Assembly (NCBI GenBank): GCA_009780015.1
Contig: WRAW01000005.1
Location: forward strand, 1-59,166
From: Defluviitaleaceae bacterium
Lineage (GTDB): Bacteria; Bacillota; Clostridia; Lachnospirales; WRAA01
Length of the DNA: 59,166 nt
Direction of reading: 5' to 3'
The notes under the pieces: model-generated
The model's input: the letters and a program-made list of their open reading frames with translations, nothing else
What the model was told of the DNA's origin: nothing
The model's database searches: none
Program-made: the position numbers and the translations under genes
Part shown: positions 2,624 to 55,989 of the stretch, one piece after another
Numbering within the stretch: position 1 is the first letter of the stretch
Layout: each line of letters begins with the position of its first letter

Positions 2624-2659
2624 TAGACCTCTTGCGAAATTAAGCCCGCAAGAGGTCTA
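2624..2659. repeat. Minimal TAGACCTCTT inverted-repeat element
   Basis: A 13-bp perfect inverted repeat (TAGACCTCTTGCG / CGCAAGAGGTCTA) with a 10-nt loop lies behind the ssb-like gene. The arms match the ends of larger elements at 31053 and 48963. It could act as a terminator hairpin, though no strong U tract follows. Confidence 0.7.
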
Positions 2660-14418: not shown

Positions 14419-14449
14419 TTAACACAGAAGGAACTGACGGCAAGCGGCG

Positions 14450-14542
14450 GAAAACCTAGTCCCCACAAAACCCGATTTTGGCCTTGCGGGGTGGGATTCG
14501 ACCTCTCAAAAAGCGTTGAGCGGTATTGAACATAGGTTCTTA
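14450..14542 (-). repeat. One-ended copy of the GTGTTCAATACC repeat family
   Basis: The right end (14522-14542) reads on the minus strand as TAAGAACCTATGTTCAATACC, followed inward by GCTCAACGC and a GGTC..CCACCCC block. The same order occurs at 50676. A further internal block at about 14460-14490 matches the 31053 element (20 of 25 bases). The left end is missing, so the copy looks truncated. Together with the terminator behind it this fills the 335-bp gap 14419-14753. Confidence 0.7.
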
Positions 14543-17650: not shown

Positions 17651-17765
17651 ATAGTGAAATGACTTTAATTCAAGACAAAATATTTTTTAAGCTTTAGCGT
17701 GTCCGCGCGGCTTTAAGCGCGGATCTGAAAAATATTTTGTCTCATTTTCTAAGTCATTTCACTAT
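17651..17765. repeat. 115-bp triple-nested palindromic element
   Basis: Three nested inverted repeats share one centre: outer ATAGTGAAATGACTT / AAGTCATTTCACTAT (17651-17665, 17751-17765), middle AGACAAAATATTTTT / AAAAATATTTTGTCT (17673-17687, 17728-17742) and inner TCCGCGC / GCGCGGA (17702-17708, 17717-17723). It encodes nothing and lies just upstream of the oxidoreductase gene. MITE-like, or a strong hairpin separating the cofactor genes from the enzyme gene. The gap 17618-17837 holds nothing else I recognise. Confidence 0.85.
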
Positions 17766-31052: not shown

Positions 31053-31240
31053 TAGACCTCTTGCGTAACTGTCAAGCGCCATCTTTGCGGTCGATTTCCC
31101 ACCATGCCGCGTCATCTCCTCCTAGCGTAACACTACGGGTACGCTCAGTCCACTCTCAAAGCCAAAACTGGGCTTTGCGGGGACCCCGGGCGCCGTTGAT
31201 TCCTTGCCTGGCGAAAAATTGCCGCGCAAATCTACTCTGC
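31053..31240. repeat. TAGACCTCTT-family repeat overlapping the ispF stop
   Basis: The left end TAGACCTCTTGCG is at 31053-31065. CTTTGCGGTCGATTTCCC (near 31086) matches the 48963 element. The right end reads on the minus strand as TAGATTTGCGCGGCAATTTT, matching GGATTTGCGAGGCAATTTT at 50010. A middle block near 31160 also matches the 14450 copy. The ispF stop codon TAG lies inside this right end. The element fills most of the 264-bp gap between ispF and cysS. Confidence 0.7.
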
Positions 31241-31726
31241 TTTTAAACCGGATGAAACACTAGTTAACAAACACACGGCCTGCGCCGCAATTCCCAAACC
31301 AATACCGGTAAAGCCAAGACCTTCCTCGGTGGTAGCCTTCACACTGACCCTCCCCGCGTCAATGCCAAGCGCCGCGCCTATGTTGCGGCGCATATCGTCT
31401 ATATGGGGCGACATACGCGGCTGTTGGGCGATGATTGTCGCGTCTATGTTGGATATCTCGAAGCTATTGCCGCGGATCATCCCTCCGACCCGGCTCAGCA
31501 AGACCATGCTTGATACGCCCCTAAGCGAAGCGTCGCTGTCGGGGAATCGCTTGCCGATATCTCCAAGCGCCGCCGCGCCCAGCAGCGCGTCTATAATGGC
31601 GTGAGTGAGCACGTCCGCGTCGGAGTGGCCGTCCAAGCCCTTCATAAAAGGTATGTCCACACCGCCGACGATCAGCGGCCGACCTTCGACAAGCCTGTGG
31701 ACATCATAGCCTGTGCCGATTCTCAT
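31232..31726 (-). CDS. ispF: 2-C-methyl-D-erythritol 2,4-cyclodiphosphate synthase
   Basis: 164 residues. [20 protein letters not shown] with the zinc-binding Dx[19 protein letters not shown] and [15 protein letters not shown] are the IspF motifs. It makes the cyclodiphosphate of the non-mevalonate isoprenoid pathway; ispD is not in the window. Its ATG overlaps the PRPP synthetase stop (ATGA). The last codons and stop fall in a repeat end. Confidence 0.95.
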
Positions 31727-42593: not shown

Positions 42594-43604
42594 CTACCTT
42601 CCTCTCTTTAACTCAACAAGCCCAAACTCTTCCATTACCTTCTGGAACACTTGCGGCGGCGGCGCTTCAAACCTTTTCCCGGCAAGATAGCCCAGCGCCC
42701 CGTCGGTCTGAGTGAACGTAAGGCTCTCACAGTGAAGAAGCTGGCTTGTCACCCCGAACCTTCTCTGGAAATCAACATTTGCGCGTGGTTCGCCGTACTT
42801 GGTGTCGCCCACAACAGGAAATCCCGCATATTTTAGGGACGCGCGTATCTGGTGAAACCGCCCCGTCTCAAGTCTGGCGCGTAAAAGCGTGCAGCCTAAA
42901 GCCGACGCCAACGGCTCGAAGCTGGTCGCGGCGTACTTTGCGCCATCTATGGTTTGCTCGGATATTACGGCGATTTTGTGCGAATTCTTGCGCAAATATA
43001 CCCGAACCTCGAAAGATTCGCGAACTTCACCAACTACCAGAGTCAGGTACAGCTTTTCGCACCTATTCTCAGCAATCGCCCGGTTCATCCAGGCAAGAGC
43101 CGCGTTGGTCTTTCCCAGGGCCACAACCCCTGACGTGTTGCGGTCGAGCCGGTTTACAACAGCCGGGGCTCCCACGAAGCCCGGTTTTGGCTTCATGGGG
43201 TGGTCATCCGAGGAATACTCATAGCCGCCCTCACGCAAATACGACGCGGCCCGGTCGACAATGGAGTCGCGCACGTCGGCGCTGTCCGGCTGGGACAGTA
43301 CTCCTGGCGGCTTGTTGACTATCAGTATGTTGTCGTCTTCATAAATGATGTCCAATTCACCCGCCGAGTAATAGCTCGGCTTACCGGCGGTAAGGTCTGC
43401 AAGAGCCGCGTCGGATAGAAAAATCCTTACCACGTCGCCGTCTTGAAGCATTTCATTCCCCGCGGCCTTGGAATCATTAAGCTTGACGTTGCGCTTTCGT
43501 ATCATCTTCTGAACTAAGCTCTTAGGCGCGCGATTAAGGTATTTCAGCAGAAATCTGTCAAGGCGCTGGCCGCATGTGTACGCGTCTATCAAAACTTCCC
43601 TCAT
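42594..43604 (-). CDS. RluA-family pseudouridine synthase
   Basis: 336 residues. An S4-like RNA-binding start (RLDRFLLKYLNRAPKSLVQK) is followed by ILIVNKPPGVLSQPDS and the catalytic Asp motif VNRLDRNTSGVVALGKT, then LETGRFHQIRASLKYAGFPV. It isomerises uridines in 23S rRNA; the architecture fits RluC/RluD. The start overlaps the prfB stop (ATGA). Confidence 0.93.
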   Translation of the reverse strand: MREVLIDAYTCGQRLDRFLLKYLNRAPKSLVQKMIRKRNVKLNDSKAAGNEMLQDGDVVRIFLSDAALADLTAGKPSYYSAGELDIIYEDDNILIVNKPPGVLSQPDSADVRDSIVDRAASYLREGGYEYSSDDHPMKPKPGFVGAPAVVNRLDRNTSGVVALGKTNAALAWMNRAIAENRCEKLYLTLVVGEVRESFEVRVYLRKNSHKIAVISEQTIDGAKYAATSFEPLASALGCTLLRARLETGRFHQIRASLKYAGFPVVGDTKYGEPRANVDFQRRFGVTSQLLHCESLTFTQTDGALGYLAGKRFEAPPPQVFQKVMEEFGLVELKRGR

Positions 43605-47739: not shown

Positions 47740-48825
47740 TTATTCCCCGAAAGATATACCAAGAGACCTGGCGACCTCTACCATCTCACCCTCCGGGTTT
47801 ACGGGCTTTGTCTTTCCGGCAATGCTCTCAAGGCTTACATAATCCATCTTGCCGTTGCGCAGGCATACCATGTTGTTGTAATTTCCCTCATGAATAAGCT
47901 TGGCCGCCGCTACGCCGTAACGGCACGAGAGTACGCGGTCGGCGGCGGATGTCTCGCCTCCGCGCTGGATATGCCCAAGGGCGACCGAACGCACCTCCTG
48001 GCTTATGTTGTGTTCCAAAAGCGCTGCCAGCATCTCCCCGATTCCACCGAAGCGTACGGGGTCGGGGCTGTCCTCGACTATCTTGCTGACTACTTTGTCC
48101 CCTCCCTTGAGTGACGCGCCTTCACATACGACAATCACTGTAAATGTTTTGCCATGCTTCTGACGCTCTTCGATTTTCTTGATAATTCCCGCAAGAGTGA
48201 AAGGAATCTCAGGAATAAGAATGACGTCGGCAGACCCGGCAATACCCGAGTGCAGGGCAATCCACCCGGCCGAGCGGCCCATTACCTCTACGATCATGAC
48301 GCGGTGGTGCGACTCCGCAGTGGTGTGCAGGCGTCCCAAGTTTTCGGTGACGATGTTTACAGCCGTGTCAAAACCGAATGTTGTGTCGGTAGAACCCAGA
48401 TCGTTATCGATTGTCTTAGGCACACCCACAACATTGATGCCCTTTTTCGCAAAATCATAGGCGGAAGCAAGCGTACCGTCGCCGCCAAGCACGCACAGCA
48501 CGTCCACGCCTTCGCGCCGCAGATTTTCAACCGCCACGTCCGACACGTCCTTCTTGAACCTTTCACCGTTCTCTTCTACCCAGTAGTCAAAGAGATTGTC
48601 CTTGTTCGAGCTGTAGAGAATTGTTCCCCCCCTGTGCAGAATGCCGGACGTGCTCTGCATCGTCAACGGGATATAATCGTTGAGATACATTCCGCGGTAA
48701 CCGAACTTATAGCCGATGAGCTCGTAACCATACTTGGCGATACACGTCTTTGTCAGGGCATAAATTACGGCATTCAGGCCCGGGGCATCTCCGCCGCCGG
48801 TCATTACTGCTATTTTCTTAGACAT
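47740..48825 (-). CDS. pfkA: 6-phosphofructokinase (group III-like)
   Basis: 361 residues from the ATG at 48825 (GGGGAG upstream). GGGDAPGLNAVIYALTK, LGGDGTLASA, VPKTIDNDLGSTDTTFGFDT and MGRSAGWIALHSG define the family. The Gly in GGDG suits ATP, while the Lys in PKTIDND is the residue usual in pyrophosphate-dependent enzymes; this mix is seen in group III enzymes, so the phosphoryl donor is uncertain. It commits fructose-6-phosphate to glycolysis. It heads the long run through secA and prfB. Confidence 0.92.
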   Translation of the reverse strand: MSKKIAVMTGGGDAPGLNAVIYALTKTCIAKYGYELIGYKFGYRGMYLNDYIPLTMQSTSGILHRGGTILYSSNKDNLFDYWVEENGERFKKDVSDVAVENLRREGVDVLCVLGGDGTLASAYDFAKKGINVVGVPKTIDNDLGSTDTTFGFDTAVNIVTENLGRLHTTAESHHRVMIVEVMGRSAGWIALHSGIAGSADVILIPEIPFTLAGIIKKIEERQKHGKTFTVIVVCEGASLKGGDKVVSKIVEDSPDPVRFGGIGEMLAALLEHNISQEVRSVALGHIQRGGETSAADRVLSCRYGVAAAKLIHEGNYNNMVCLRNGKMDYVSLESIAGKTKPVNPEGEMVEVARSLGISFGE

Positions 48826-48871
48826 ATTAATAATCTCCCCTTGAAATTTTTTTAAAACCATTCTCCACTCT

Positions 48872-48900
48872 AGTATAGAAAAAAAATAGGCAAACGTCAA
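48872..48900 (-). promoter_or_regulatory. Promoter of the pfkA-secA-prfB run
   Basis: On the minus strand TTGACG (48900-48895), a 17-bp T-rich spacer and TATACT (48877-48872), about 45 bp before the pfkA ATG. Confidence 0.78.
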
Positions 48901-48906
48901 CAAGAA

Positions 48907-48944
48907 GGTGTTTTAATGTTGTATCCGGGCAACATTAAAACACC
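48907..48944. terminator. 15-bp hairpin upstream of the pfkA promoter
   Basis: GGTGTTTTAATGTTG pairs perfectly with CAACATTAAAACACC around an 8-nt loop. It probably ends transcription from the gerMN/spoVAE side. With the repeat behind it, it fills the 307-bp gap 48826-49132. Confidence 0.65.
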
Positions 48945-48962
48945 GACAAGATGTTCACCTAT

Positions 48963-49127
48963 TAGACCTCTTCCGAAATCAGCCAACACCGTCTTTGCGG
49001 TCAATTTCCCGAAATACGTCGTCGCCTCCTTCTTGCGAACCATTGCGGGTTCGCGGCGTCGTCGGCTCCTAGTATTTCTGGAAATTGCCTCGCAAATCCG
49101 GCATCGTCTAATTTCAGAAGAGGTCTA
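48963..49127. repeat. Complete TAGACCTCTT-family element (165 bp)
   Basis: 17-bp terminal inverted repeats (TAGACCTCTTCCGAAAT left; TAGACCTCTTCTGAAAT read from the right) match at 16 positions. The interior holds CTTTGCGGTCAATTTCCC and, on the minus strand, GATGCCGGATTTGCGAGGC, each also found in other copies. It has no coding capacity. It begins 5 bp behind the gerMN stop. Confidence 0.85.
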
Positions 49128-49132
49128 TTTTC

Positions 49133-49567
49133 TCAGCCTCTTCTGAATCTGAAATAACGGGAATTGTCAACCAATACCGTGACCGTGTCGATACCCGGGA
49201 CTTCGAGCGCGGTTTTGACTATCTGCCGGCGAAGGCAGTCCTCGTAATACGCCTCGCCAAAGCTCAGAATTTCCTTCGATAAGTTTAGGATCAGGTGGTT
49301 GTCGTTGATTATAAGCGTAAGTATCTGTGTGCCCGGCGGCGCAAAGTTTGGGCTGTACTTCTTGTCAAACAGAGCTTCCAGCAAAGCCGCCGCGTATTCT
49401 TCCGGGGTAGAAGTCTCAGGCAGTTCCACCTGTATCTCGCTGAAACTAACCTCCCCGCTCTCGTCAAAGCTGACGTTGTAAATATTCGCGCTCTGCGCGC
49501 TGACCTGATACCCAATAAACAGCACAAGGACAATCAGCACAAAGGTTGCGGCATACTCAATACGCAT
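49133..49567 (-). CDS. GerMN-domain protein
   Basis: 144 residues. An N-terminal hydrophobic segment (ATFVLIVLVLFIGYQV) acts as anchor. The GerMN core follows: YAAALLEALFDKKYSPNF, LTLIINDNHLILNLSKEILS, RRQIVKTALEVPGIDTVTVL. GerM is a sporulation/germination protein in B. subtilis with two such domains; this has one. Two bases separate it from spoVAE, supporting a spore role. Confidence 0.8.
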   Translation of the reverse strand: MRIEYAATFVLIVLVLFIGYQVSAQSANIYNVSFDESGEVSFSEIQVELPETSTPEEYAAALLEALFDKKYSPNFAPPGTQILTLIINDNHLILNLSKEILSFGEAYYEDCLRRQIVKTALEVPGIDTVTVLVDNSRYFRFRRG

Positions 49568-49569
49568 GG

Positions 49570-49923
49570 CTACTTCTCCTTAGGAGCGAACAACAGGGAC
49601 GCCACGAAGCTGAAAAATATCGCCGCTGAAATACCCGCCGCAGCCGCCGTGATGCCGCCCGTAAGTATTCCCGATATCCCGCGCTGGTCTATCTGATCCC
49701 TGACTCCCGTCCACAACAGGTATCCAAACCCGGGCAGCGGCACGGTCGCGCCGGCTCCGGCCCACTCGGCAAAGCGCTCATATATCCCAAGCGCGCCAAG
49801 CACGCAGCCCACCACCACAAACAACACCAAAATTCTTGCCGAAGTCAGCTTTGTCTTGTCAAGCAAAATCTGCCCGATCACACATATGAGCCCACCGGCG
49901 ATAAACGCATTGATATATTGCAT
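49570..49923 (-). CDS. spoVAE: Stage V sporulation protein AE
   Basis: 117 residues from the ATG at 49923, with GAGGGG upstream. INAFIAGGLICVIGQILLD, LGIYERFAEWAGAGATVPL and ISGILTGGITAAAAGISAAI match SpoVAEb. It is a membrane part of the SpoVA channel that moves dipicolinic acid into spores and out on germination. spoVAC and spoVAD, normally directly upstream, are absent here. A sigma-G-type promoter lies just upstream. Confidence 0.94.
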   Translation of the reverse strand: MQYINAFIAGGLICVIGQILLDKTKLTSARILVLFVVVGCVLGALGIYERFAEWAGAGATVPLPGFGYLLWTGVRDQIDQRGISGILTGGITAAAAGISAAIFFSFVASLLFAPKEK

Positions 49924-49953
49924 AAAAACACCCCTCATGACAAATAGTACATC

Positions 49954-49982
49954 TAGTATTTGTCAATTCGACGTTCTTATGC
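49954..49982 (-). promoter_or_regulatory. Sigma-G-type promoter of spoVAE-gerMN
   Basis: On the minus strand GCATA (49982-49978), a 17-bp spacer and AATACTA (49960-49954). This is one base off the sigma-G -10 CATACTA, with the -35 form GYATA intact. Spacing to the spoVAE start (about 30 bp) fits. spoVA genes are sigma-G targets in Bacillus, and sigG is in this window. Confidence 0.7.
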
Positions 49983-49995
49983 GTTCTGCATAAAA

Positions 49996-50048
49996 TAGAC
50001 CTTTTCTGAAACCGGACAATGCCGGATTTGCGAGGCAATTTTTTGCTG
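49996..50048. repeat. Half copy of the TAGACCTCTT family
   Basis: TAGACCTTTTCTGAAACC, then GGACAATGCCGGATTTGCGA and GGCAATTTTT. This matches the minus-strand reading of 49127-49080 in the full element. The other half is missing. It sits 15 bp behind the YbaK gene stop and just upstream of the spoVAE promoter. Confidence 0.8.
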
Positions 50049-50062
50049 CTTTTCACCTGATT

Positions 50063-50602
50063 TTACAGCTCGACTACTCTTGCCCTGTGATATATATGCG
50101 GCAGAAACTTGTCCAGCAGCAGTCTTGTTTTAATCTTCAAGTGACTGGTATTAGCTCCGGGGTTGCAGCAAAACCACTCGGCGTCCGCGACTTCCTTATC
50201 TATTATGAGCTGAACAAAGTCATCCTTATCATTTATAAGCCCCATGATTGTAGCGGATCCCGGCGTAACGCCCAAATGTTTGAGCATATATTCTTCTTTA
50301 GCGAACGAAACCCTCGAACATCCTACGGCGTTGGAAAAAACTCCGGTATCAAACGGCTTTTCAGCCGGCATGATCAGTAAGTAAAAACTGGTCTTCTTGC
50401 TGTTGCAAAGAAATATGCTCTTTCTTATTTCCGCGCCAAGAACCTTGTTTATTTCGATACATTCCGCCATAGAGCTTACCGTGTCATTATCAACTCTTTC
50501 GTACGGAATTTGAAGACTGTCGAGAATTTTATAGACCTCTTTTTCAAGCGGAACACGCTCGTCCGCAGGAGCTGTTGTCATAACTTCGCTTATGCTTATC
50601 AT
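50063..50602 (-). CDS. YbaK/ProX-type aminoacyl-tRNA deacylase
   Basis: 179 residues. VYKILDSLQIPYERVDNDTV, GAEIRKSIFLCNSKKTSFYL, LLIMPAEKPFD, GVTPGSATIMGLINDKDD and the C-terminal WFCCNPGANTSHLKIKT follow the ProX/PrdX branch of the YbaK editing domain. This branch hydrolyses Ala-tRNA(Pro) made by mistake. AAAGGAA precedes the ATG. No proS gene is adjacent. Confidence 0.88.
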   Translation of the reverse strand: MISISEVMTTAPADERVPLEKEVYKILDSLQIPYERVDNDTVSSMAECIEINKVLGAEIRKSIFLCNSKKTSFYLLIMPAEKPFDTGVFSNAVGCSRVSFAKEEYMLKHLGVTPGSATIMGLINDKDDFVQLIIDKEVADAEWFCCNPGANTSHLKIKTRLLLDKFLPHIYHRARVVEL

Positions 50603-50622
50603 ATTTTAATTCCTTTCTGAAA

Positions 50623-50659
50623 TTCAGGGGATCAGGCCAAAGCTGAAAGATCCCCTGAA
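50623..50659. terminator. Hairpin between tyrosine phenol-lyase and YbaK genes
   Basis: TTCAGGGGATC pairs with GATCCCCTGAA (11 bp) around a 15-nt loop. It follows the tpl gene and its repeat on the minus strand; a short T run lies after it. Likely a terminator. Confidence 0.6.
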
Positions 50660-50675
50660 AATTTGGTCAAAAAAC

Positions 50676-50803
50676 TAAGAGCCTGTGTTCAATACCGCTC
50701 AACGCCGTCTGGAAGGTCAAACTCCACCCCAGGCGTCGCTCCTTCCGAGATTGGCGAAAAATCGCCTCTTCCAGCCGACATTTCGGGTATTGAACACAGG
50801 TTC

Positions 50804-50806
<3 letters not shown>
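50676..50806. repeat. 131-bp inverted-repeat element providing the tpl stop codon
   Basis: Terminal repeats of 21 bp, TAAGAGCCTGTGTTCAATACC (50676-50696) and the minus-strand TAAGAACCTGTGTTCAATACC (50806-50786), differ at one base. The interior has GCTCAACGCCGTCTGGAAGG and a GGCGAAAAATCGCC hairpin. A related copy lies at 14450. The first three bases of the right end, TAA on the minus strand, are the stop codon of tpl. Confidence 0.88.
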
Positions 50807-52249
<1,443 letters not shown>

Positions 52250-54325: not shown

Positions 54326-54333
54326 TAAGACAA

Positions 54334-54500
54334 CTTGTTAGGTGAGGCTCCTAAAAGAATACAGGTTGCTGCCCCAAAACGTCGAGAGACACCAAGGGGT
54401 ATAACAGGCATGATCGGATTAAGGTCTGCTTAACGTAACTGATTTGGACAAGAGTTCAAATCTACGTCTTTTAGTGCTAAAGCTCATACGAGGGGTTACA
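54334..54500 (+). ncRNA. M-box (ykoK) magnesium riboswitch
   Basis: The conserved M-box core is legible: TTGTTAGGTGAGGCTCCTAA, then GGTTGCTGCCCCAAAACGTC, GAGAGACACCAAGGGGTA and AACAGG, closing with TTAGTGCTAAAGCTCATACG. In B. subtilis this RNA folds on binding Mg2+ and terminates transcription of mgtE. An intrinsic terminator (54575) and mgtE (54628) follow, so the logic is the same here: high Mg2+ switches mgtE off. Together with the promoter and terminator it accounts for the 412-bp gap 54216-54627. Confidence 0.93.
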
Positions 54501-54574
54501 ATTGTTGTGTTATTGCGCAGTCTATATTCACGGTATTTTCGTGTGTAGTATTTGCGTTAGAATAACGTGCGTTT

Positions 54575-54627: not shown

Positions 54628-55989
54628 ATGTTGAAAAAAAGTATCTTGAACCACATCAATGACAAGGATATGGAGAGCCTCAAGGCTCTGCTTGCCGGCG
54701 CGGAAGAAATGGATATTTTATACGCTTACTACGACCTGTCTTCCGAAGACCAGCTAATAGTATTCAGGCTCCTTGGAAAAGATTCCGCTCTGTCGGTATT
54801 CGACCAGCTCGACGCCGGGCTGCAGCGCAACTTGCTGCGCTCGTTTACGGACGAAAGCGCGATAGAGTTCGTCAACGAGATGGCCCCTGACGACAGGGTA
54901 AAGCTACTGGACGAACTTCCCGCGGGCGTCGCGAAGAAACTCATAAACTCACTGTCCCCGGAGGAACGGGAAGCCACGAATATTCTGATGGGCTACAAGC
55001 CGGAGACCGCCGGCCACATAATGACGACCGAGTACATATCGCTTAAAAGGGATATGACGGTGGAAGAAGCAATAGAAAAGGTGCGCAGACAAGCAAGAGA
55101 AAAGGAAACCGTCTACGTATTGTTCGTAACTGACAACTTTAAGAAGCTTGAAGGCGTGCTGACGCTGAAAGAACTGCTGATAGCCGACTGCAGCGCAGAA
55201 CTGGAAAAGGTCATGCACAAAACAGTCATGAAAGTGTCCACAAGCACAGACCAGGAGGAAGCCGCCCACATTCTGCAAAGGCTTGACCTTCTGGCGATAC
55301 CTGTAGTCGATAGTGAAGATCGCCTGGTTGGCATTATAACTATCGACGACGCCATGGACATACTTGAAGACGAAGCCACGGAAGATATATACGACCACGC
55401 CGGGCTTGCCGACGTTACAGGCAACGAAGCCGACAGAAGCGAAGTTCTTATCAACGGCAGCATGTGGAACATCTGGAAGGTACGGCTTCCGTTCCTGCTG
55501 ATAACACTTGCGGCAGGGGTTTTCTCCGGCGCGATAATCAGCGGGTTCGAAGACACGCTACAGTCAATCGCGGCCGTGGCGATATTCATACCGCTAATTA
55601 TGGACATGGGCGGTAATGTCGGAACTCAGTCTACAACGATTTTCGTGAGAGGAATGGTGCTTGGGCATATCAAGATACAGAGCTTTTTCAAGCATTTCGC
55701 GAAAGAAGTCGGAATCGGGTTCAGCATAGGATTGTTAATAGGCGCAGCTTCCGGCGTAATCGCGGCCGTATGGCAGGGTATGCCGATGCTCGGCCTGGCC
55801 GTCGCAATGGCTCTTGTCGTGACAATGACCCTGGCTTCTCTGCTGGGCTTTCTTGTACCGTTTGTCCTGATAAAATTCAACGTCGATCAGGCGGCCGGCT
55901 CCGGGCCCATCATTACCTCTATCAAGGATATTGTCGGTCTAGTTGTTTACTTCGTGCTTGTAAGCGCTTTTCTGGGACACTTGATGTAG
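54628..55989 (+). CDS. mgtE: Magnesium transporter MgtE
   Basis: 453 residues, the family length. The N-terminal helical domain (FDQLDAGLQRNLLRSFTDES, MAPDDRVKLLDELPAGVAKK), two CBS domains (MTTEYISLKRDMTVEEAIEK; LLAIPVVDSEDRLVGIITID) and a five-helix pore domain (LIMDMGGNVGTQSTTIFVRG) are complete. CBS/N domains close the pore when cytosolic Mg2+ is high. GGAGG precedes the ATG. Its last 51 bp overlap the convergent ECF gene. Confidence 0.97.
   Translation: MLKKSILNHINDKDMESLKALLAGAEEMDILYAYYDLSSEDQLIVFRLLGKDSALSVFDQLDAGLQRNLLRSFTDESAIEFVNEMAPDDRVKLLDELPAGVAKKLINSLSPEEREATNILMGYKPETAGHIMTTEYISLKRDMTVEEAIEKVRRQAREKETVYVLFVTDNFKKLEGVLTLKELLIADCSAELEKVMHKTVMKVSTSTDQEEAAHILQRLDLLAIPVVDSEDRLVGIITIDDAMDILEDEATEDIYDHAGLADVTGNEADRSEVLINGSMWNIWKVRLPFLLITLAAGVFSGAIISGFEDTLQSIAAVAIFIPLIMDMGGNVGTQSTTIFVRGMVLGHIKIQSFFKHFAKEVGIGFSIGLLIGAASGVIAAVWQGMPMLGLAVAMALVVTMTLASLLGFLVPFVLIKFNVDQAAGSGPIITSIKDIVGLVVYFVLVSAFLGHLM

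Follow-up and report, generated by a model that had tools for sequence, protein, structure and literature searches.

A 165-bp inverted repeat lies between two genes of a Defluviitaleaceae bacterium, and related copies occur elsewhere in the window, by which we mean the whole 59,166-nt stretch that was analysed (contig 5 of a MAG of 2.77 Mb, 84% complete, in 183 contigs). What kind of element is this, what moved it, and does its position behind genes serve the genes or the element itself?

Elements in the window

The coordinates of the full-length copy, 48963–49127, are exact: its 10-nt ends are perfect on both sides, with TAGACCTCTT at each end. It is flanked by a 144-aa ORF (49133–49567, minus strand) and a phosphofructokinase gene (47740–48903, minus strand), and a covariance model scores it at 149.9 bits on the minus strand versus 49.9 bits on the plus strand. 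The four copies named in an earlier note on this DNA (the full, half, mini- and chimeric copies below) all exist, and each lies downstream of a gene's 3′ end. The full, minimal and half forms described there were recovered, but the copy at 31053–31263, taken for a half form, is a chimera with a type C right end and a nested hairpin.

48963..49127, minus strand: full-length type A element, 165 bp; minus is the strand predicted to fold as the conserved rod
48963..48978, plus strand: left TIR of the full element, TAGACCTCTTCCGAAA
49112..49127, minus strand: right TIR of the full element, TAGACCTCTTCTGAAA as read on the minus strand
49035..49054, no strand assigned: core apical hairpin of the full element, GCGAACC-ATTGCG-GGTTCGC
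49996..50041, plus strand: type A half copy, 90% complementary to the full copy's right end over 50 nt
2624..2659, no strand assigned: mini-copy, 36 bp, consisting of ends alone; over its first 21 nt it is identical to the left end of the autonomous G258 IS
31053..31263, minus strand: chimeric element with a type A left arm (TAGACCTCTT), core and type C right end (TACTCTGCTTTTAAACCGGATGAAACACTAG)
31147..31190, no strand assigned: nested hairpin, insert I, within the chimeric element
31232..31261, minus strand: element-encoded C-terminal tail of IspF, SVSSGLKAE plus stop, read from the element end
50678..50804, minus strand: type B element with GAGCCTGTGTTCAATA / GAACCTGTGTTCAATA ends and an internally deleted core
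14436..14541 (boundaries approximate), plus strand: degenerate type B element with insert I at 14459–14494
43164..43203, plus strand: copy of insert I in an RluA-family gene (42594–43604, minus strand)

The full copy and the half copy have GGATTTGCGAGGCAATTT in common. When one mismatch was allowed, TAGACCTCTT had 10 matches in the window; shuffled sequences had a mean of 2.07 and a maximum of 7, and none of 100 reached 10.

Other structures were seen in the same stretch. A perfect 15-bp hairpin (GGTGTTTTAATGTTG/CAACATTAAAACACC, 48907–48944) adjoins the full element just upstream of the phosphofructokinase gene (minus strand). An intergenic palindrome at 17652–17764, almost perfect, has TATAGTGAAATGACTT ends and is GC-rich in the middle; it is single-copy in the 830-kb sample described below and is possibly a MITE of another type. 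Rfam covariance models gave no match at 48900–50900 up to E = 1, and elsewhere in the window they matched only an M-box (magnesium) riboswitch at 54327–54502 (plus strand, 142.9 bits), upstream of a 453-aa ORF (54628–55989).

Ends, core and inserts

Our sample consisted of 40 stretches plus the window, 829,798 bases (the 830-kb sample). At least seven kinds of TIR, each of them found at both ends of an element, surround one core.

End type A: TAGACCTCTT
End type B: GAACCTGTGTTC and variants
End type C: TAGTGTTCCATCCGG
End type D: GAGCCTGT
End type E: TAGGGTGTGT
End type F: TTAACTCCCTCTGAAAC
End type H: TATAGCTG

The core is about 105 nt long, and its two arms flank an apical hairpin of the form GCGTACC...GGTACGC or a compensated variant of it. 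Two nested hairpins are optional. Insert I (AGTCCACCCC...GGGGACCCCGGG) has a length of about 45 nt and is always at one of three positions; insert II (GCCTACGCTGGCGCTTCGGATGCT...AGCATCC) has a length of about 50 nt. Hardly any copy of either lies outside such elements. Element length is strikingly constant, mostly 162–166 nt, irrespective of the ends. The common descent that the earlier note had read from shared interior blocks is borne out and extends further, since the core is common to elements with unrelated ends.

Core identity is 0.77 within end types versus 0.66 between them, and several cores have a nearest neighbour with another end type. Because the cores mostly cluster by end type, exchange of ends would be occasional. 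Three elements have different end types at their two ends, and one of these, which has two cores, may be two nested elements.

Variant interiors and other cargo were also encountered. The element at L104:2494-2744 has TAGACCTGTCCGG ends and, inside, another kind of hairpin (TTCGCGTTTCGTTGTCTAAAACTACTTAGG...) twice in tandem. Three elements of the MAG Mx356_bin48 (L173, L176 and L177) have the same core arms and D-type ends around a different apical hairpin (GGCATAATAAGAGATTATGTC), so the apex is exchangeable too. Other TAGACCTCTTGCGAAATT-ended repeats (L285, L286 and L300, from G242 and G295) have an interior unrelated to the core; type A ends therefore carry more than one kind of cargo.

Fold and strand asymmetry

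We aligned 37 elements from the host and other genera on the minus-core strand and chose pairs regardless of G.U. In this alignment 90% of cells are paired and 61 of 65 pairs have changes on both sides, which none of 500 shuffles reached; controls slid by 1–3 columns had 37–42% of cells paired. By itself, covariation could be produced when one arm of a DNA palindrome is copied onto the other. A difference between the strands could not be, because such copying predicts no strand preference.

Mismatch counts, which are non-independent because the copies are related, were G.U 118 versus A.C 30 and G.A 142 versus T.C 22 in the inner stem, and G.A 191 versus T.C 1 in the rod near the apex. At alignment columns 69/117, 67/119 and 70/116, G.A or A.G is present in 36, 32 and 30 of the 37 sequences. 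Taken alone, the foreign elements have G.A 308, T.C 18, G.U 139 and A.C 72. Predicted folding energy prefers the folding strand in 34/34 of the host's own elements and in 34/34 foreign ones. G.U exceeds A.C in the inner stem of 32 of the 37 aligned sequences, with the reverse in 2, and the sign test over columns is modest (20 versus 5 columns, p = 0.002). A count from RNAalifold (G.U 95, A.C 8) was set aside because the program picks pairs allowing G.U; the unbiased pairing was used instead. Insert I alone showed no clear strand asymmetry, and one column carries most of what there is.

Could ordinary palindrome maintenance account for all of this? On this reading the asymmetry would be a fossil of one ancestral core. 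Arm-to-arm copying gives two-sided changes without selection, the copies are of common ancestry, and the asymmetry is weak in the TIRs (19 versus 9 and 5 versus 4) and absent in the apical hairpin. However, several columns that switch repeatedly between G-C and A-U hold G.U and almost no A.C intermediates, and the same asymmetry recurs with the conserved G.A pairs in other genera and families, by mismatch count and by energy alike. We consider it rather unlikely that copying alone is the explanation. Judging from the alignment, the core fold is apparently constrained on one strand only and conserved across genera.

Position relative to genes

ORF calls trained on the sample gave 741 genes and 87.5% coding sequence. 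Of 80 placed elements, 74 are intergenic, with 54 between co-directional, 11 between divergent and 9 between convergent genes. Of 72 flanking gene 3′ ends, 24 have their stop codon at the junction, as TAA/GAACC, TTAG/AACC or TAG/ACC (the slash marks the junction), versus 14.6 expected if TA sites were chosen uniformly in the gaps after removal of the elements. There is thus a genuine though modest excess. Many copies do lie directly behind genes, as the earlier note had stated for this family; the placement as such would come largely from TA targeting in short gaps and from stop-regenerating ends.

The earlier note had also suggested that the repeats possibly act as terminators or mRNA stabilisers. 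As host-level cis elements, they would be part of the transcript as 3′ hairpins, would end transcription or make the upstream mRNA more stable, and would be kept for the gene's benefit. Consistent with this, many copies start at a stop codon, the fold is strongly conserved, and the window copies with a readable core, the half copy excepted, are all sense to their neighbours. Across the 830-kb sample, however, orientation is random: relative to co-directional flanking genes, 31 copies are sense and 23 antisense (p = 0.34), and the split by majority gene strand is 18 versus 20. Most of the intergenic copies (the 54 of 74 noted above) have co-directional genes on both sides, so that a terminator there would interrupt operons. 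Nor does the strand asymmetry differ among sense, antisense, convergent and divergent copies. A U-run after the stem, the criterion for an intrinsic terminator, was not evident by eye in any of the copies read. A role of this kind for the host is improbable.

One site points to insertion. In a sister species of the same genus, the gap between ispF and cysS is only a few nucleotides long and has no element. In the window, the ispF stop codon is covered by the element, as had been noticed earlier: the final codons of the gene, stop included, come from the type C right end of the copy at 31053–31263. The likeliest account is that an element inserted into the 3′ end of ispF on the branch leading to the window's genome, a direction of change that we infer from this one site. 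At the phosphofructokinase site, sister-species homology ends before the element. Relative to the sister species, the RluA-family gene has an extra 54 nt (18 codons), in frame, in the stretch that holds insert I, and solved relatives have a shorter loop here as well.

Transposase source and target sites

An order-wide pattern search for inverted TAGACCTCTT pairs found one such pair spaced 885 bp apart, delimiting an autonomous type A IS of that length (G258:C85:4011-4895) in another family of the same order. Both of its ends read TAGACCTCTTGCGAAATTAA, and its 20-bp TIRs are perfect. It encodes ORFs of 151 and 119 aa that match HTH_Tnp_4 and DDE_Tnp_4; their best NCBIfam model is NF033581 IS5, with each ORF below the whole-protein cut-off. 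The mini-copy at 2624 shares its first 21 nt with this IS. A second, truncated copy with a similar protein is present in G243; all known occurrences of the type A IS are in other families of the order. For types B and D (ends GAACCTG/GAGCCTG), IS5-type ISs of 824–875 bp with the same kind of ends are found in other genomes of the order. One of these, in G034, shares GAACCAGCGGTCAATAACGC, an exact 20-nt end, with the host elements, and its ORFs match NF033580 IS5. Searches found no transposase for end types C, E, F, G and H.

The earlier note had called for a transposase with matching ends; such enzymes exist in other genomes of the order, but the host MAG, 84% complete in 183 contigs, yielded no intact one. 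There, DDE_Tnp_1 matches are weak or broken and the IS5 query has no match. The host's transposase may thus have been lost, be unassembled or act only after transfer.

The flanks of types B and D carry an identical 3 bp in 31 of 35 cases (16 TAA, 14 TTA and one TCA). Type A elements have TA at both ends, where a TA duplication is indistinguishable from the TIR itself. By the features tested, the elements are non-autonomous IS5-family MITEs. The MITE-like character proposed earlier is upheld by the TIRs, the TA or TWA targets, the 3-bp duplications of the GAACC and GAGCC types, the dispersal, and the IS5-family ISs with the same ends elsewhere in the order.

Two candidates were rejected along the way. 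IS630 (PF13358) was considered as the origin of the TA-type ends, but two host loci and 13 others had no matching inverted pair around the transposase; the exception was D-type ends at G010 loci, which are apparently separate elements. G010, a relative in the same order, has 34 PF13358 matches, with many IS630-type transposase genes and fragments. A pair of TAGACCTCTT matches 4 kb apart on contig C20 was rejected as an element since one match falls within coding sequence and the other is an end without a partner.

The REP-like character that had been offered beside the MITE-like one fared less well. Strand-specific hairpins are typical of Y1 systems, in which elements move as single-stranded DNA. 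The nested inserts, moreover, resemble REPs or Rickettsia palindromic elements (PMC3733652). Against a REP/RAYT-like origin, PF01797 (Y1 tyrosine transposase) has no match in the 84% complete MAG, size and ends differ, and the ends and duplications fit IS5-family DDE elements. We regard movement by a Y1 transposase as very improbable.

Abundance and distribution

The exact sequence TAGACCTCTT occurs 52 times in the host MAG, versus 7 for the reversed pattern, and BLASTN with the 165-bp element gave at least 47 matches. In the 830-kb sample, iterated nhmmer found 84 core matches; merged with the nested inserts, these make up 97 elements covering 18.5 kb, or 2.2% of the sample. By extrapolation, the whole MAG would hold roughly 300–320 elements. 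A covariance model gave 128 matches at E ≤ 0.01, a figure that counts both strands of the same palindromes. In most cases the elements are 36 to about 380 bp long, with a mode near 165 bp, and they are short, non-coding, multicopy and dispersed, as MITEs are. TIR pairs more than 500 bp apart in the sample, considered as large elements, were mostly pairings of separate elements.

Among 392 sampled genomes of the order, 24 carry the core, in 16 of 174 genera. A named carrier among them is the 'Clostridiales bacterium' MAG Mx356_bin48, which has an element identical to one in G113. A scan of genome contigs named only Mx356_bin48 and two likely chance matches in Planctomycetes, while plasmid and phage sequences gave no match to the element. 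Two window copies are only 1 kb apart, but local duplication or an assembly artefact is practically ruled out as an explanation: further copies, whose absence the earlier note would have taken as a sign of local duplication, are spread over dozens of contigs and also occur in the sister species and other families.

Proposed mechanism and implications

Taken together, these are probably IS5-family MITEs mobilised in trans, with a common core on many end types and a core fold that serves the element. Matching ISs in other genomes, the target duplications of types B and D, the dispersal and the element-free ispF–cysS gap of the sister species directly support the mobility part of this reading. 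IS5-family transposases would recognise the element ends in trans and insert type A and similar elements at TA, types B and D at TWA. Since the ends read TAG or TAA, a protein would still be terminated after the element lands on its stop codon or within the final codons of its gene. Recombination within the core, between copies, is the most likely way in which the core came to have at least seven end types; a few chimeras may be products of it. One arm would then have been copied onto the other across the palindrome.

The predicted fold of one core strand is a rod with as many as about 80 pairs, which the conserved G.A pairs interrupt. Since the copies show no preferred orientation to genes and are equally asymmetric whether sense or antisense, we infer that the element, and not the neighbouring host gene, is what the fold serves, either as RNA or as single-stranded DNA in movement or maintenance. 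A bolder and more tentative reading is that the core is a mobile structured RNA or single-stranded DNA module that spreads by changing ends. The G.A rod would then ride several distinct IS5-family transposases in different families of a single Clostridia order, and its fold would be selected for raising the transposition or persistence of the element.

MITEs are usually seen as deletion remnants of one IS. With one structured interior under many IS5-type ends, selection on a MITE interior, beyond the ends, becomes testable. A strand-specific G.A fold in several families of the order is a candidate for a new mobile RNA or single-stranded DNA structure. Ends that carry a stop codon offer a simple reason for accumulation behind genes, and they can rewrite protein C-termini, as at ispF.

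Comparison with known systems

Like other IS5-family MITEs, the elements described here are short and non-coding, have TIRs and TA or TNA targets, and match autonomous IS5-family ISs at their ends. Unlike them, they have an interior that does not resemble the IS sequences read and that is common to several end types, together with a strand-specific conserved fold and nested hairpin inserts.

The likeness to GTAG/CGTC REPs and Rickettsia palindromic elements (PMC3733652) is in the parts. Insert I is small, forms a hairpin and in one case lies within an open gene; its in-frame position in the RluA-family pseudouridine synthase gene recalls the Rickettsia elements in particular. The core also has CGTC motifs beside a hairpin, as GTAG/CGTC REPs do. 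The whole elements differ in having IS5-type ends and duplications, with no Y1 transposase found, and here CGTC is in the arms of a longer fold.

The closest published parallels are the BOX elements of Streptococcus (PMC3049150) and the QMITEs of Coxiella (PMC5896051). BOX elements are modular, with variable internal modules, an RNA fold predicted from alignments and IS-like ends, and in S. suis the same boxB modules are bordered by either of two kinds of ends (PMC3049150). Our elements share the modularity, the alignment-based fold, the IS-like ends and the presence of more than one kind of end on the same interior. They differ, in a comparison with BOX by description only, in that what is shared is an entire core, about 105 nt long, and the end types number at least seven. 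QMITE1 and QMITE2, in the part of their description that we draw on, are long palindromic MITEs that overlap gene 3′ ends, and one of them supplies the C-terminal residues of a protein (PMC5896051), as the chimeric element does for IspF. Their ends and host are different, and that part of the description gives no core common to the QMITE end families.
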